Source: a virus. From it: DNA of 25,847 nucleotides. The notes beneath the pieces are model-generated. The model saw only the letters and a program-made list of their open reading frames with translations. It was not told the DNA's origin and searched no databases. Position 1 is the stretch's first letter, and the number at the start of each line of letters is the position of its first letter. Made by a program: the position numbers and the translations under genes. The stretch spans positions 1-25,847 of the IMG/VR virus record IMGVR_UViG_3300032093_000748, one strand, 5' to 3'. Below, in pieces: positions 3,077 through 23,761 of the stretch.

Positions 3077-3871
3077 TTATTTTGTAGCAATCTTTTTGAC
3101 AAGTTCCCGTAATTCTTGTGGTGGTGGTACGGCTCTTTGTCGCTGTAATTCTTGTTCCCTCTGCCACTCCACAAATTCCTGGCGCTCGCGTTCTGTTTTC
3201 TCTTTGCTTTGTTGTAATTCTTTTTCCCTCTTTTCTTCAGGAGATAAATTACGCACTGGCAAAGCGTCATCAAGCCACCTGTGAGCGTTTATCCATGTTG
3301 CGGGGTGTGCTGTGTATGTTGGAACTCTATTAGGGTCTGATAAGTACCTTGTAGCCCCTTCTATGATGATCTGTGGTTCAGTTGTTTGAATTGCTTTTAG
3401 CCATGACTTGAAAGCGGCTTGTTTAGCAACTTTGCGTGGATAGATTTTCCAAAATTCTTCAAACAACTCTGATGGTTTAATTGATGTTTCTCTAGGGTGG
3501 TTCATAGGGCGTGATTGTCCACCCGTTACTGCCGTCAATGTCACCCCGTTAGCGTCATTGCTACGCCCCGTCACAATGTCAGCCCGTAATTTATTTATAT
3601 TAATCTGATAAAGATGCGGCCTGCGGTCCTCTCTGCAATTAGCAGAACCGCCAGCGCCTTTAAACATTCTGATGAATCCCCGCTCAACCAAATTGTTTAC
3701 AGATCGCTGTACGGTCCTGATGCTGATAGATGCTTTGGAAGCAATAGTGGCTTGTGATGGATACGATTGCGTTCCTTCATCATTTGCGTGATCAGCAATT
3801 ACCAACAGAACCATCTTCTCCACTGTTGGCAAACTTGTTCTCCAAACATCTGACATCAATCTGATGCTCAT
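3077..3871 (-). CDS. HTH replication-initiator-like DNA-binding protein
   Basis: About 264 residues. Residues 31-80 form a winged-helix domain of the HTH_36 type (YPSQATIASKASISIRTVQR, then LVERGFIRMF), a family common in phage replication-initiation proteins. The C-terminal half has the pattern FEEFWKIYPRKVAKQAAFKSW and YTAHPATWINAHRWLDD typical of such proteins, followed by a long charged helix (EEKREKELQQSKEKTERERQ). It likely binds an origin or loads replisome proteins. Start: GAGGA lies six bases before ATG 3869-3871, whereas the in-frame ATG at 3875-3877 is only one base from it, so the shorter form is preferred. That ATG overlaps the stop of whiB as ATGA. Confidence 0.75.
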   Translation of the reverse strand: MSIRLMSDVWRTSLPTVEKMVLLVIADHANDEGTQSYPSQATIASKASISIRTVQRSVNNLVERGFIRMFKGAGGSANCREDRRPHLYQININKLRADIVTGRSNDANGVTLTAVTGGQSRPMNHPRETSIKPSELFEEFWKIYPRKVAKQAAFKSWLKAIQTTEPQIIIEGATRYLSDPNRVPTYTAHPATWINAHRWLDDALPVRNLSPEEKREKELQQSKEKTERERQEFVEWQREQELQRQRAVPPPQELRELVKKIATK

Positions 3872-4194
3872 AGACATTCCTCAATCTGATCTAAACTAAT
3901 TCCTAATTTTTCAAAAGAATCAATGGCGCGTTTTAATTGATTTGGGTATTTGCTAGGAAATCTGATGCCCACTCTTTCAATGCTAGTCATTCCGCCCCAC
4001 ACTCCGTAATTTTCATTCTCCATGGCGTAAGTTAGACAATCTTTCCAAATAGGGCAAGCCGCGCAAATACTGCGTAATGCGTTGATGTTTTCATACGCCA
4101 ACACGCTCCGTTCTTCTTCTACGCGGTAAAAAAGATCAGTGTAAATTTCTTTACAACCTGCTTTTTCCCAATCTACTTCGCTGTACTTGGGCAA
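3868..4194 (-). CDS. whiB: WhiB-family Fe-S transcription factor
   Basis: WhiB-like proteins are actinobacterial regulators carrying a 4Fe-4S cluster and acting with the primary sigma factor. The four cluster cysteines are present: one in EKAGCKEIY, then CAACPIWKDC (CxxCx5C), followed by the GVWGG turn that defines the family and a basic C-terminal region (RFPSKYPNQLKRA). The longest frame begins at 4239, but TTG at 4192-4194 with GGGGGAG upstream gives 108 residues beginning LPKYSEVDWEKAGC, closer to normal WhiB length. It overlaps the end of the nuclease gene. In phage TM4 a WhiB is known to interfere with host WhiB2 and superinfection; a similar role here is inference. Confidence 0.93.
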   Translation of the reverse strand: MPKYSEVDWEKAGCKEIYTDLFYRVEEERSVLAYENINALRSICAACPIWKDCLTYAMENENYGVWGGMTSIERVGIRFPSKYPNQLKRAIDSFEKLGISLDQIEECL

Positions 4195-4841
4195 CCTATC
4201 TCCCCCGTTGGATCGTAATACGGACAATAAGATGCACAAAATGCAATTGGCTTTTCAGGTTCAGGTGCAGTTTTATTTTGCGCCACAATATCTTTGATTT
4301 CCTGTAACCAATCCAATGCGTCTAATGCAATTGCGGGGTTATATGGTTCTTTGTGTACCAAGATGTCCTTCATGCCGCCATCACGGGGAATACCGACTAG
4401 GGCAACATCTTTTACTTCATAACCATTGTTTGCTAATAGCCAACCGTAAAGTTGGATTTGCCAGCGTTGTTGTTGATTGCCAAAGTATCTAGCGCCTTTT
4501 TTTGTAGTTGTTTTCCAATCTACAACCAGCCCTTGATCTTTAATAAATAAATCACAATGACCTTTTAGCCCTTCGTGACTTACTTCTAACTCAATTAAAT
4601 AATTATCACCAAATGGATCTAAACGCTGTATTGATTTTTCTACACCGCTATGAATAAAAGTACCCAAGATTGCGGCAAGAGTTTCAGTCTGATTTGTTTT
4701 TTCCGTCTGTTTTAAATCATGCCAAACCCTGCGCCTGCAACCGCCAGCACTTGATGGACCTATCTCTATTTGTTTAGATCTAGCCCTGGATTGATCATGG
4801 CCAACTAATGATTTAGTTAGCAGATCTTGTAGATCAATCAC
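4173..4841 (-). CDS. Cas4/RecB-like Fe-S exonuclease (PD-(D/E)XK)
   Basis: 222 residues. Nuclease motifs in order: GTFIHSGVE with H64, GHCDLFI with D97, VVDWKTT with D108 and K110, and QIQLY (Q128-Y132). An N-terminal SSAGGCRRRVW (C35) and a C-terminal FCASYCPYYDPTGEIGC (C202, C206, C217) supply the four cysteines that hold the iron-sulphur cluster in Cas4- and AddB-like nucleases. Such phage enzymes resect DNA ends for recombination or processing; no CRISPR genes are near. The start ATG overlaps the upstream stop as ATGA. Together with the annealing-protein candidate (5978-6553) and RusA it forms a recombination set. Confidence 0.88.
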   Translation of the reverse strand: MIDLQDLLTKSLVGHDQSRARSKQIEIGPSSAGGCRRRVWHDLKQTEKTNQTETLAAILGTFIHSGVEKSIQRLDPFGDNYLIELEVSHEGLKGHCDLFIKDQGLVVDWKTTTKKGARYFGNQQQRWQIQLYGWLLANNGYEVKDVALVGIPRDGGMKDILVHKEPYNPAIALDALDWLQEIKDIVAQNKTAPEPEKPIAFCASYCPYYDPTGEIGCPSTAK

Positions 4842-5677: not shown

Positions 5678-5985
5678 AGCAACATGCCTTCCTCTGCTGA
5701 TCGCCAAACAATGCAATCATTTCCGTGTTGGTTTTTTCTTGTTGTTCCTGTGTCCATAATAAATCCATCTTTAACAAGACTTATCCTGGTAGGTCTGATG
5801 GTGTTGCCATCTATGTTTAGTGTGGTTTCCATTTCTTGATCTGTTGCACCGCGTAGCCCTTGGTTCAAAATGTACTCATATACCTTGCGGCGTAGTGATC
5901 CTGTTTTTGGCAGGATCTTTTGAGCGGCGGCAATAGATGTGCGCTGTGCGTTATGGGCAATTACAACCTTGTTGTCATCAAGCAT
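5674..5985 (-). CDS. Winged-helix DNA-binding protein (103 aa)
   Basis: Residues 30-90 fit a winged helix: RRKVYEYILNQGLRGATDQE (helix 1 and start of helix 2), MEMTT-like turn, GNTIRPTRISLVKDGFI (recognition helix) and the wing MDTGTTRKNQHGNDCIVW. This kind of domain is frequent in phage regulators and primosomal helpers. It overlaps the end of the annealing-protein gene by eight bases. It may regulate the operon or act with the replication protein; the domain assignment is from pattern only. Confidence 0.65.
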   Translation of the reverse strand: MLDDNKVVIAHNAQRTSIAAAQKILPKTGSLRRKVYEYILNQGLRGATDQEMETTLNIDGNTIRPTRISLVKDGFIMDTGTTRKNQHGNDCIVWRSAEEGMLL

Positions 5986-6553
5986 TTAATTCATTTTTCT
6001 TTGCAAGGATTGCATCACGCAATGTAGTGCCATCAACACTTACATCTAGAAGATCAGCATTTAATTGCCAGGCTGATTTAAGTTCATCTAAATCAGTAGT
6101 GCCATCAATCAAAGCCATTATTGCGGTAGCGCTAGCCACTTCTTCTTGTGTGTATTCGCGTTTTGCTTTTGGAGTTTTTGCTTCAGGTGCTTCTACGCGC
6201 TGTGCCTTTTCCATATCTTGACGCAAAGGCCGTGTTGGTTTTTTTGTATTTGGATCTGTACCTAAATAACCAGCAAGACTTAATGCTCTGCCAGTTGCGC
6301 TTGTAGATGCGTTTTCTAGTGCTGATGATTTGTTTACAAAAGAACTGCCAACCATTTCTTCTGCTACATCAACAAACATTAAAACATCACCGTAATAAAT
6401 TTGGCTTTCAACAATGTATTGAATGGGCCGTAATGTTTCAGGATCACGCACTACATCAATAATTTTTGCGTGAATCCGTAGATCTTTGTGGTCTGCATGA
6501 ATTCGTACTAGACGCTCTGCGGCGGTTTCGTAGCCTTCAAAGTTTCCTGCCAT
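5978..6553 (-). CDS. Probable single-strand annealing/recombination protein
   Basis: 191 residues starting MAGNFEGYETAAERLVRIHA. The segment SALENASTSATGRALSLAGY (residues 77-96) matches the E(N/T)xxTSAxGRALxxxGY signature found in ERF/Rad52-like phage annealing proteins and relatives. The C-terminal 80 residues are a charged linker (EAPEAKTPKAKREYTQEE) and a small helical domain. Being first in an operon with a Cas4-like exonuclease fits an exonuclease/annealase pair. ATG 6551-6553 is chosen over the open frame to 6631 because GGAAGG lies upstream and a promoter (6599-6627) falls inside the extension. Family assignment is moderate. Confidence 0.6.
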   Translation of the reverse strand: MAGNFEGYETAAERLVRIHADHKDLRIHAKIIDVVRDPETLRPIQYIVESQIYYGDVLMFVDVAEEMVGSSFVNKSSALENASTSATGRALSLAGYLGTDPNTKKPTRPLRQDMEKAQRVEAPEAKTPKAKREYTQEEVASATAIMALIDGTTDLDELKSAWQLNADLLDVSVDGTTLRDAILAKKNELNA

Positions 6554-6573
6554 TGCCTTGCCTTCCTGTATGT

Positions 6574-6587
6574 GAGCCTTGTGGCTC
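6574..6587 (-). promoter_or_regulatory. 5' leader hairpin, copy C
   Basis: The minus-strand RNA GAGCCACAAGGCTC forms a 5-bp stem with an ACAA loop about five bases after the predicted transcription start and is followed by ACATACAGGAAGGCAAGGCAATG. The sequence differs from copies A and B but the placement and the AAGGCAA ribosome site agree. Confidence 0.5.
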
Positions 6588-6598
6588 TTGGTGGGGAA

Positions 6599-6627
6599 AT
6601 TATGGGGGGCGGGTCTGACAATTACAA
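6599..6627 (-). promoter_or_regulatory. Promoter of the recombination/WhiB operon
   Basis: Minus strand: -35 TTGTAA (6627-6622, 4 of 6), 17-base G/C-rich spacer, -10 CATAAT (6604-6599, 5 of 6). Predicted start near 6592. It would drive the genes from 6553 down to about 3077. Confidence 0.6.
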
Positions 6628-6632
6628 GCACC

Positions 6633-6679
6633 GTAATTAATGCCCTGGGAGCGTGTCGGGAAAAGAATTCATTAATTAC
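6633..6679. promoter_or_regulatory. Perfect 10-bp inverted repeat in the divergent control region
   Basis: GTAATTAATG (6633-6642) and CATTAATTAC (6670-6679) are exact inverse copies with 27 bases between them. They lie between the minus-strand promoter at 6599-6627 and the plus-strand gene at 6721, in the 167-base gap separating divergent genes. The arms are far apart for a simple hairpin but suit two repressor half-sites or two separate operators. I found no convincing plus-strand promoter boxes in the gap. Confidence 0.5.
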
Positions 6680-6720
6680 CCCAAAAAGTGAGAAAATCCC
6701 AGGTGAGAGGCGGTTGATTT

Positions 6721-6939
6721 ATGGCTACACAATCAGGATCAGCAGGTGCAAGAGTTCATTTATCTCTATTTAATTTAATAATTGAGGTAGAAAGTGACGC
6801 AATTTATCCCGATCAAATGCACGATATGACTAATAGGGCTTTGGGTTTATTTGAAGGAGCGCTAGAAATCTGCAAAGTGAATAATTTAGACATCAGATCA
6901 GATGATGTAGATGATTATATTGAGGGTGAAGATGTGTAA
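6721..6939 (+). CDS. Acidic hypothetical protein (72 aa), plus strand
   Basis: Starts MATQSGSAGARVHLSLFNLI. It has 15 acidic and 4 basic residues, with a strongly acidic tail (SDDVDDYIEGEDV). No family recognised. A GAGAGG ribosome site lies about eleven bases before the ATG. It is the first of only two plus-strand genes in the window and stands across a divergent control region from the recombination operon, the usual position of a phage regulator. The charge would also fit a DNA-mimic or a partner of a basic protein; this is speculation. Confidence 0.75.
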   Translation: MATQSGSAGARVHLSLFNLIIEVESDAIYPDQMHDMTNRALGLFEGALEICKVNNLDIRSDDVDDYIEGEDV

Positions 6940-7018
6940 AAATTGTGGTACATGCAGTTCAGAACACCCTAAAAATTTAGATGATGCAGTAGATGCAATT
7001 GATCTACTGGGAATTTAA
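6932..7018 (+). CDS. 28-residue CxxCxxC peptide, plus strand
   Basis: Begins MCKNCGTCSSEHPKNLDDAV and ends with DAIDLLGI. Cysteines 2, 5 and 8 plus H12 could bind one metal ion; the rest is an acidic amphipathic helix. ATG 6932-6934 lies inside the last codons of the 72-residue gene and has GAGG seven bases upstream, encoded within that gene, so translation is coupled. Its stop overlaps the stop of the minus-strand 7015-7182 gene by four bases. The ribosome site and cysteine spacing support a real gene despite the length. Confidence 0.6.
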   Translation: MCKNCGTCSSEHPKNLDDAVDAIDLLGI

Positions 7019-7182
7019 ATAGAGGTCCAACCAATATAACCCGCATCAGGGTTATTTATTTTCCATTCTTCCTGTAATTTATTTTGTACTGTCCAATTTA
7101 TATCGTGCGTACATTGTGCGCACAGTGGGCAAATTTCAGATCCCATACTTTTGTAAACATGTTCACAAATTAATCCAGCCAT
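7015..7182 (-). CDS. Small Cys-rich zinc-ribbon-like protein (55 aa)
   Basis: Starts MAGLICEHVYKSMGSEICPL and ends GYIGWTSI. C6, H8 and the CPLCAQC cluster (C18, C21, C24) suggest a zinc site, followed by a tryptophan-rich helix (INWTVQNKLQEEWKINN). Short proteins with CxH...CPxC openings are common in actinophages. It overlaps the metallophosphoesterase stop by 13 bases; the ribosome site is weak, so it is probably coupled. Its 3' end meets the plus-strand peptide gene tail to tail. Confidence 0.65.
   Translation of the reverse strand: MAGLICEHVYKSMGSEICPLCAQCTHDINWTVQNKLQEEWKINNPDAGYIGWTSI
7036..7064 (+). terminator. Candidate terminator for the plus-strand pair
   Basis: ATAACCC (7036-7042) pairs with GGGTTAT (7049-7055) around GCATCA, followed by TTATTTTCC on the plus strand. 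It lies 18 bases after the stop of the 28-residue gene. Only three G-C pairs, and no T-tract on the minus strand, so it would act on the plus transcript only. It sits inside the coding part of the opposing 55-residue gene. Confidence 0.4.
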
Positions 7183-8201
7183 ACTTTGTACGCCGCAGTT
7201 ACGCGCCCTTTTACTGGGTCAATAAAATGTAATCTTTGTGATGGTGTGGCGCTAGCGGCTAACATAACTCCAGCGTATCTGTTCTCTGACTCAGTTGATC
7301 CAGTTTGGAATACAGATCCTTCACCATTAGCCAAAGCCCACTCTGCATGTGTGTGGTAATGACCAATATAAACATCTCTAAAATCCCAAGGGTAAGCACC
7401 TGACCGCCAACGGTTTACATGCTGAACAATTGCACCAGGAGATGCAAAACCGTTCCTGCCAACTTCATCACCGTGAATCAATAACGCTTTGTAATTGCCA
7501 ATCTCTACCCGTTGAATATCATCAGGGCAATCTTTCCATTCCAAACGCTTTTCATCTTTAAGTAATTGGCGTGCTAATTCATAACACATGCGGTCAAAGT
7601 TATCTGATCTAGGAACATTATCCCGCTTAGATCCTATGCGCCCATGGTTACCCCATTCTGCAATGACCGTAACTTTCTCATAATTAGCCAACGCAACACG
7701 CACTAAGTCCATACATAAGCGGCTTACATTCACATATTGTTCAAACAATGTGCTGTCAATTTCAAACACTTGTCCTGGGAAATTAAATAAACCTTCAACC
7801 ATGTCACCGCCAAACATAATTGTGCAATCTTTTACGGCGTGATCTGCTCTTTGAATTTCTGTAATTCTTACAGCCTTAGCCGCAAATTCTAAAACTCTTT
7901 GACGCATAATTTCTGAGTTGTAACTAGGTGTTCTTTTAGCGCCTTGCCAATCTGTCATGTGCCACAAAGCAACTTCTGCTTTTCTACGGGCATCAACAGG
8001 CGGCGGTGTAACTGGTGGCACTTTGCCCAATGTAAGCATGGCATCATGTGCGCCCTGATAGGTACTACTAACTAAATCTTCTGTGCGTTCTTTGGCTTTC
8101 TTTAATTGTTTTTGCAAACGCATCATTGCCGCACGCAATTCTTTTACATCTTCTGACTCAACACCTTCAGGGAATTCTTCTAATCGTTTTTCAAGACTCA
8201 T
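7170..8201 (-). CDS. Calcineurin-like metallophosphoesterase
   Basis: 343 residues. After an N-terminal coiled coil (15-45) and a proline-rich linker (61-70), all two-metal phosphoesterase motifs are present: HMTDWQG (H81, D84), MFGGDMVEG (D133), AEWGNHGR (N185, H186), LIHGDE (H243) and GHYHTHAEW (H281, H283, H285). The family hydrolyses phosphodiester bonds; phage members related to Mre11/SbcD may act on DNA, others on nucleotides or RNA. It shares an operon with a DUF6378-like protein (overlap of 11 bases), which hints at nucleotide or DNA metabolism. Substrate cannot be read from the sequence. Confidence 0.88.
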   Translation of the reverse strand: MSLEKRLEEFPEGVESEDVKELRAAMMRLQKQLKKAKERTEDLVSSTYQGAHDAMLTLGKVPPVTPPPVDARRKAEVALWHMTDWQGAKRTPSYNSEIMRQRVLEFAAKAVRITEIQRADHAVKDCTIMFGGDMVEGLFNFPGQVFEIDSTLFEQYVNVSRLCMDLVRVALANYEKVTVIAEWGNHGRIGSKRDNVPRSDNFDRMCYELARQLLKDEKRLEWKDCPDDIQRVEIGNYKALLIHGDEVGRNGFASPGAIVQHVNRWRSGAYPWDFRDVYIGHYHTHAEWALANGEGSVFQTGSTESENRYAGVMLAASATPSQRLHFIDPVKGRVTAAYKVWLD

Positions 8202-23057: not shown

Positions 23058-23255
23058 TTACTCTCCTAATTTCTTGTCTGTTGTTACAGACACTTTTGTT
23101 GTTTCAGATTCTTTTGTAAACGCAGGTTTTGCTCCAGCAGGCGTTACATCTTTTGCAACAAATCCTTCAGGTGCTTCAAATTCATCACCAGGTTTTACAG
23201 TGATCCCAACACTAGGGAACACGCGTTCATCTGTTCCATTGTACTTATATTTCAT
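23058..23255 (-). CDS. Small conserved structural-region protein (65 aa)
   Basis: MKYKYNGTDERVFPSVGITV then KPGDEFEAPEGF is an opening found in short proteins between head completion and tube genes in actinophages. The tail (KPAFTKESETTKVSVTTDKK) is disordered and basic. Two adjacent ATG codons are available (23256-23258 and 23253-23255); the second gives a four-base distance to AAGGAG, the first only one, so the second is chosen. Role unknown; possibly a virion accessory or decoration protein. Confidence 0.7.
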   Translation of the reverse strand: MKYKYNGTDERVFPSVGITVKPGDEFEAPEGFVAKDVTPAGAKPAFTKESETTKVSVTTDKKLGE

Positions 23256-23263
23256 CATGCTCC

Positions 23264-23761
23264 TTATGCTTGGATCATCTGTGTTACGGGGAATTGTATC
23301 TCAGCAAAGATTTCCGTAAGGCCATCTTTCTCAGTGCTAGGTTCACCGTAGCGGGCTTGTATAACTGGTTCAGCGCCTTGCCATACAAGATTGCCTGAAG
23401 TATCGCCAAAGTTATGATCTGATCTGAGGCGCTCTTTAATGTTATCTACAACATTGTCAAAATCAGACATAACCAAAAGGCTATCTCTATGAAATGAAAC
23501 GCAAAAGATCTGAAGAATTACGGTGTAATCAATACGCTTCCAACCGTTAGTTGCGCCGCCAATAGCCAAACGGTTTTCATATTCATCAGCAATAAAAACT
23601 ACTACTGCACTGCGGGTCATCTGACCAGCCTGTGCATTTACCTCATAGTTAATAATCTTAGGAAAGGAAGTAAATACCTGATTTACATTTTCAATAGGTG
23701 GGTTGGCTATAAATTCTGACAATGTAGCGCGGACCGCACTGCGACCTGTAAGAGTAGTCAT
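23264..23761 (-). CDS. Tail terminator-like protein
   Basis: 165 residues. A helix-strand pattern (RSAVRATLSEFIANPPIENV ... IDYTVILQIFCVSF ... DFDNVVDNIKERLRSDHNFG ... LTEIFAEIQFPVT) fits the alpha/beta fold of tail terminator or gpU-like proteins, which cap the tube at the head end. Its place between the head-tail connector and the tube gene agrees. ATG 23759-23761 overlaps the previous stop as TAATG. Assignment by pattern and order; no unique motif. Confidence 0.65.
   Translation of the reverse strand: MTTLTGRSAVRATLSEFIANPPIENVNQVFTSFPKIINYEVNAQAGQMTRSAVVVFIADEYENRLAIGGATNGWKRIDYTVILQIFCVSFHRDSLLVMSDFDNVVDNIKERLRSDHNFGDTSGNLVWQGAEPVIQARYGEPSTEKDGLTEIFAEIQFPVTQMIQA

Follow-up and report, generated by a model that had tools for sequence, protein, structure and literature searches.

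Bacterial [4Fe-4S] ferredoxins (1clf, 1fdn) carry the motif CxxCGxCxxEC. In the available part of PMC10946529, a CXXCXXC trio of cysteines together with a fourth cysteine is described as the host of the cluster, and short peptides with CXXCXXC spacing are described as forming clusters. The available text of PMC12648291 presents designed half-ferredoxins of 28 amino acids and, from anaerobes, rare natural counterparts of about 30 amino acids, and a term search of that text returned no mention of phage or virus. According to the accessible part of PMC11323111, small unknown genes are abundant in phages. The gene whiB serves as an actinophage marker in work on freshwater actinophages (PMC10202952 and PMC6802176, in the portions available), and WhiB and Lsr2 are regulators widespread in actinobacteriophages (PMC8612146, portion available).

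The second gene of the locus described here, ORF2 (Table 1), encodes a peptide with the layout C2-x2-C5-G-x-C8-x2-E-H12, followed by a DDAVD helix. It shares with the bacterial ferredoxins the loop CxxCGxCxxE and a fourth ligand position at the same spacing, and some of its relatives have HP where ferredoxins have CP. It differs from them in having His as the fourth ligand, in its single site, in the DDAVD helix that makes up its C-terminal half, in giving no Pfam match and in having no strand before the first cysteine: C2 is the second residue, with only Met before it. With semidoxins and protodoxin-1, as the available text of PMC12648291 describes them, ORF2 shares a length of about 28–30 residues, one CX2CX2CX3-type site, a mostly acidic composition and a stand-alone gene, whereas semidoxins have a fourth Cys, a beta-alpha-beta half fold and an origin in anaerobes. 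The peptide thus has the size of a semidoxin (about 30 residues, stand-alone), the cluster itself being presumed, with His in place of the fourth Cys. TraR-type phage proteins, which act on host RNA polymerase (PMC11323111, part available), resemble ORF2 in being small and acidic with a possible metal site. No sequence match links ORF2 to the TraR type. In TraR the acidic DxxD precedes the Cys loop, whereas in ORF2 the DxxD segment comes after it. The WhiB-like proteins of actinophages occur in the same genomes as ORF2, are small and share its cysteine and metal theme, but their cysteine spacing and length differ from those of ORF2, and the peptide gave no WhiB match in Pfam and PHROG.

Gene Organization

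The window (the whole stretch of DNA analysed, 25,847 bases long and an IMG/VR virus record) contains 43 ORFs of at least 45 aa in a greedy list, 41 on the minus strand and two on the plus strand. One of the two is ORF1; the other (23074–23319, 81 aa) is possibly spurious and overlaps an ORF of the minus strand. With that doubtful ORF as a caveat, the initial annotation was right that the pair opposes all other genes in strand. ORF1 and ORF2 overlap by 8 nt and have net charges (K+R−D−E) of −11 and −3, respectively, the former value agreeing on recomputation with the one first given. The ribosome site of ORF2, which had been called proper, is weak: GAGGGTGAAG lies just 5′ of the ORF2 ATG, inside ORF1, and for this reason coupled re-initiation is no less likely a route to translation of ORF2 than a ribosome site of its own. 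The three-cysteine start of the window peptide is present as first described; overlooked at that stage were H12, four residues past the third cysteine, and the variability of the cysteine trio among relatives.

Table 1. Coordinates of the gene pair, its neighbours and nearby signals in the window.
Feature	Positions	Strand	Remarks
WhiB-like regulator	3868-4239	-	Marker of actinobacterial host
Divergent neighbour, phrog_11717	5978-6556	-	Unknown function; first gene of early replication/recombination run
Perfect 10-nt inverted repeat, GTAATTAATG / CATTAATTAC	arms 6633-6642, 6670-6679		Divergent intergenic region
Extended -10-like element, TGAGAAAAT	6689-6697	+	23 nt before ORF1 ATG; candidate promoter
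ORF1	6721-6939	+	ATG 6721, TAA 6939; 72 aa, acidic; alignments and purifying selection
ORF2	6932-7018	+	ATG 6932, TAA 7018; 28-aa microprotein, MCKNCGTCSSEHPKNLDDAVDAIDLLGI
Convergent neighbour, 55-aa Cys-rich ORF	7015-7182	-	Stop overlaps ORF2 stop
Terminator-like hairpin, then TTATTTT	7036-7055	+	18 nt past ORF2 stop
Metallophosphoesterase/exonuclease-like, phrog_284	7170-8201	-	Constant convergent neighbour; bait for distant ORF1s

Relatives keep both frames, and differences that change an amino acid are far fewer than silent ones. Within clades, dN/dS is 0.01–0.14 for most pairs of ORF1 and about 0.1–0.4 for ORF2. A peptide frame broken in relatives had been named beforehand as a sign against the pair; the frame is intact. 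Judged from these alignments, both ORF1 and ORF2 are under protein-coding selection, and the pair is real, beyond chance. It had also been placed in no known family, in agreement with the families searched here, none of which matched ORF1 or the peptide.

To the left of the pair lie divergent early genes, among them those for an exonuclease, WhiB, a replication initiation protein and a RusA resolvase; the phrog_11717 neighbour looks by eye like an Erf-type annealing protein. To the right, again by eye, lie a lysin-like gene and structural genes. The pair would form a small plus-strand operon between the end of the late genes and the early replication genes. In relatives, other genes take the place of the 55-aa Cys-rich neighbour. 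Look-alikes of this neighbour are found in several larger phages (L253, L267, L272), and in L138 and L139 a second plus-strand gene behind ORF1 resembles its C-terminal half. In the L017–L030 group, two Pfam DNA_methylase ORFs of the C5 type separate the pair from the phosphoesterase; in L018 the N-terminal and C-terminal parts of the DNA_methylase are separate, overlapping ORFs (6254–7033 and 7005–7856), and an antisense extension of the L017-type peptide reaches into the DNA_methylase region.

Distribution and Predicted Fold of ORF1

Scans of viral contigs with ORF1 yielded 41 + 3 + 4 = 48 contigs besides the window. Distant ORF1s were sought beside the phosphoesterase, a scan for which gave at least 598 relatives, the best 80 being used. 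Among these best 80, an ORF1 match (E < 1e-3) was found in 66 of the 76 loci with at least 500 nt beyond the phosphoesterase; in all, the 80 loci hold 69 ORF1s, every one of them (69/69) in opposite orientation to the phosphoesterase. As 11 of the 69 had already been counted, ORF1 is present in a total of 107 viral contigs, including the window, a distribution that shows it to be a conserved core gene of the phage group, as judged from the matches in these contigs. The invariant core across 24 diverse rows comprises M1, L16, L19, E22, Y29-P30-D31, D35, R39 and D57 (window numbering), and the net charge of 66 distinct ORF1s ranges from −12 to −9 with a median of −10. In one 12,326-base contig (L035), ORF1 is duplicated internally and a frameshift leads to an early stop, while the peptide frame is intact; the duplication and frameshift could be an assembly fault.

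The AlphaFold model of ORF1 obtained from a relative, L020 (pLDDT 70.9), combines a beta hairpin with a long helix and an acidic helix or tail; an earlier model built with fewer sequences was all-helical (pLDDT 67.9). Foldseek searches with the ORF1 model against viral and PDB structures returned nothing at E < 0.001, and the best Z in VIA-align was 3.7. The histone-fold rows in the latter (Z 3.7 and below) were too weak and were not read as homology. At the sequence level, ORF1 had no meaningful match in Pfam, PHROGs, NCBIfam or PDB sequences and no convincing match in named phage records or cellular genome contigs, and the WhiB-like profile PF02467 matched neither ORF1 nor ORF2.

With its predicted hairpin, long helix and acidic tail, ORF1 may act through protein–protein contact rather than by binding DNA. 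We regard the case for a core acidic protein that works by contact with another protein as evenly balanced. A different role, that of an anti-defence protein (an acidic DNA mimic or inhibitor) with ORF2 as an add-on, would suit a protein this small and acidic, and one clade carries two C5-methyltransferase-matching ORFs beside ORF1; however, its core status and very low dN/dS set ORF1 apart from most anti-defence genes, which are fast-evolving and accessory, and none of the families searched matched it (the defence library PADLOC lies outside that set), so that we hold the anti-defence role to be quite unlikely.

Occurrence of ORF2 With and Without ORF1

The presence of ORF2 behind ORF1 was tallied by hand, with a detection pattern consisting of G-x-C and later acidic residues, so that the pattern itself contributes to the invariance of C8, while C2, C5 and H12 lie outside it; ORF1 loci without a pattern match were read by eye. 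ORF2 is present in 73 and absent from 33 of the 106 assessable contigs, one further contig being cut. The 40 distinct ORF2 peptides found beside ORF1 fall into 31 with C2, C5 and C8 and nine with C8 only, and H12 accompanies all of the former (31/31) and none of the latter (0/9). On a tree of ORF1 (72 rows, 69 columns, many forks unresolved), the one-Cys type appears in at least three places, and supported branches force all five changes that it requires. Gain or loss of the peptide accounts for at least eight changes. Given these counts and changes on the tree, ORF2 is, in the aligned sequences, an optional gene whose site residues C2, C5 and H12 are either all retained or all lost. In L137 and L146, a different short ORF (MSEAGY..TDDLRIVAVQSNQIL) stands behind ORF1 in place of the Cys peptide, so the slot behind ORF1 serves different small genes.

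A scan with eleven three-Cys peptides gave 239 relatives, and the counts below refer to the 80 best. The pattern scanned for was either the Cys motif or EH..DDA, and the constancy of those residues in this set is a selection effect. Among these best 80 of 239 loci, ORF1 lies upstream of the peptide in 30, and none was detected in the other 50 (E < 0.1 in the fetched stretch, on contigs of up to 115 kb). In 26 whole records with a stand-alone peptide, ORF1 was found in none (0/26); as a control, the ORF1 profile was found in 2/2 known carriers and in 0/10 random contigs. The stand-alone peptide is 28 or 29 aa long in 46 of the 50 loci without ORF1. Its 33 distinct DNA sequences translate into 25 distinct proteins, with pS of 0.75 against pN of 0.20 over 312 pairs at least 60% alike, and in the 16 loci that were read the neighbours vary by group. 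Taken together, the loci and substitution counts show ORF2 to be an autonomous accessory microprotein that also occurs without ORF1 in many other actinophages. No relative of the peptide was found in cellular genome contigs with a nine-residue Cys pattern, which covers close forms only. Literature listings on phage microproteins, CxxCxxC small proteins of phages, ferredoxin/WhiB phages and semidoxins contained no description of the peptide, which does not prove its absence from the literature.

This pattern of occurrence is at odds with the initial proposal that the coupled pair is one new kind of regulator, since the peptide is missing behind 33 of 106 ORF1s and, in turn, ORF1 is missing from 50 of the best 80 peptide loci and from all 26 whole records. 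It bears as well on a toxin–antitoxin module with the acidic ORF1 as antidote and ORF2 as toxin, for which one could cite the small overlapping genes and the acidic first member. ORF1 occurs alone in 33/106 contigs and ORF2 alone in 26/26 records, and no hydrophobic or known toxin feature is present; the independence of the two genes strongly disfavours such a module, which we consider very improbable.

The Cysteine Loop and Its Possible Metal Centre

Residues C2, C5, C8 and H12 of ORF2 would hold one metal centre in a loop laid out like that of a [4Fe-4S] ferredoxin, and the conserved residues of ORF2 also include two non-ligands that occur in ferredoxins too, G6 and E11. In searches against the PDB, all six matches of the window peptide (P0002) are Fe-S proteins (ferredoxins or Fe-S subunits; best E 0.34), as are all ten matches of the L204 peptide (best E 0.006), four of these chains, two for each query, being presumed to be Fe-S proteins; both matches of the L157 peptide are ferredoxins (E 1.6 and 7.8). 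The L163 peptide had no PDB match, the L178 peptide matched only zinc-finger proteins (PRDM9, E 1.3 and 2), a 13-row peptide profile matched three unrelated chains outside the Cys loop, and a one-Cys peptide matched nothing in the PDB. Thirteen peptides searched against Pfam gave nothing up to E 10, including no match to the Fer4 profile; Fer4 has four Cys ligands (C-x2-C-x2-C-x3-C), whereas the fourth is His in 31/31 three-Cys peptides. The ferredoxin resemblance of ORF2 is on this evidence weak and uneven. An NrdR match (E 5) was not taken to indicate relationship, and a TraR/DksA-like DxxDxA reading of DDAVD was dropped, the position of the A not being kept.

Of the metal-binding peptide first proposed, the site remains plausible because C2, C5 and H12 co-vary, while the binding itself is a supposition; the nine one-Cys variants indicate that it is dispensable in some lineages. 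Judging by the residues kept, ORF2 probably binds a metal, an Fe-S cluster being slightly likelier than zinc. Were the metal zinc, ORF2 would be a miniature finger, C-x2-C-x2-C-x3-H, with a purely structural role, docking by its helix and having no Fe-S chemistry. The joint loss of C2, C5 and H12 fits any metal, the L178 peptide matches PRDM9 zinc fingers only, and freshwater surface hosts meet oxygen, by which exposed [4Fe-4S] clusters are harmed. On the other hand, a span of 11 residues that contains all four ligands, at C-x2-C-x2-C spacing, is the layout of a [4Fe-4S] site and not of the usual zinc finger, G6 and E11 are conserved as in ferredoxins without being ligands, and three of the five three-Cys queries match Fe-S proteins only. 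We regard the zinc finger as a tenable but tentative alternative.

For the locus as a whole, we lean slightly towards a divergent mini-operon of a conserved acidic protein and an optional microprotein with a putative Fe-S or zinc site, the metal centre and the docking of the peptide being the conjectural parts. Early in infection, the short acidic helix presented by the loop of ORF2 would dock on a protein of the host or of the phage.

Expression Signals

Transcription of the pair probably starts at a promoter of its own and runs divergently from the early operon. The extended -10-like element TGNNANANT occurs 19–23 nt before ORF1 in 31/31 distinct near upstreams (shuffle mean 0.39) and at 0/40 other gene starts in the window, the pattern having been read post hoc from the same near upstreams on which it was scored. 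At 15–26 nt it is found in only 7/46 distant upstreams, and another -10-like form, NATA[AC]T, at 14–30 nt in 26/46. In a further twelve upstreams of the distant set, TGNNANANT lies 5–6 nt before the start chosen by the script, and some start positions of distant ORF1s are probably wrong. The TGNNANANT element supports, without proving, transcription of the plus strand.

The plus-strand hairpin behind ORF2 is present in the window, in L002 and in the L003 type and not in other relatives; as it is confined to the closest relatives, the terminator was dropped as support. No RNA families were found in the window. In many clades, GCGTGTCG or GGCGAGTCG occurs upstream of ORF1 at a varying distance from the start; in the window this element is at 6651–6658, and GCGTGTCG is present as a single copy. 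In the MAYSQ group (L191, L170, L178 and others), an operator-like tandem direct repeat of the ATTACAGGC type lies just before CATAAT, upstream of ORF1.

The perfect inverted repeat in the divergent region is likewise operator-like and is confined to close relatives. A regulator of the phage switch could be read from this arrangement: ORF1, expressed from the divergent promoter, would exert feedback on the transcription of early genes, with host RNA polymerase or WhiB as examples of what it might bind, and ORF2 would be its metal-sensing partner. The fixed place beside the early operon, the inverted repeat and the presence of WhiB in 24/24 ORF1 contigs searched speak for such a regulator. However, ORF1 and ORF2 separate in both directions, ORF1 is strongly acidic and has no match to a DNA-binding family, and the inverted repeat occurs in the closest relatives only; we judge the switch regulator unlikely. 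A control function of the pair is only suggested by its position next to the early operon in WhiB phages.

Association With WhiB and the Host Group

WhiB was found in 24/24 records with ORF1 and in 24/26 records with the stand-alone peptide, compared with 0/10 random viral contigs (drawn by random 15-mer). Because of these counts, the peptide is placed as a microprotein of actinophages. The link with WhiB is one of co-occurrence and may reflect nothing beyond the host group. A bolder reading makes the peptide a natural half-ferredoxin-like microprotein with a Cys3His [4Fe-4S] cluster, used as a takeover factor on host or phage WhiB by cluster delivery, theft or redox sensing, in freshwater actinophages of several lineages in which the gene has gone unannotated. 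We consider this takeover reading a long shot in all its parts.

Biological Significance

The peptide alone is more interesting than the pair. What is unusual about it is a widely spread, ferredoxin-like C3H loop in 28 residues that is kept or lost as a unit. The ORF2 gene measures 87 nt including the stop and the default minimum of a common gene caller is 90 nt, which would explain why such genes have been missed in annotation. ORF1, a conserved core gene that lies opposite to its neighbours and belongs to no known family, makes a knockout a clean question, and the joint loss of C2, C5 and H12 provides a ready natural control. If a cluster is bound, few natural metalloproteins would be smaller than ORF2, whose carriers are viruses that infect abundant freshwater bacteria, and the peptide would serve as a test of a free-standing CX2CX2CX3 loop in aerobic hosts.
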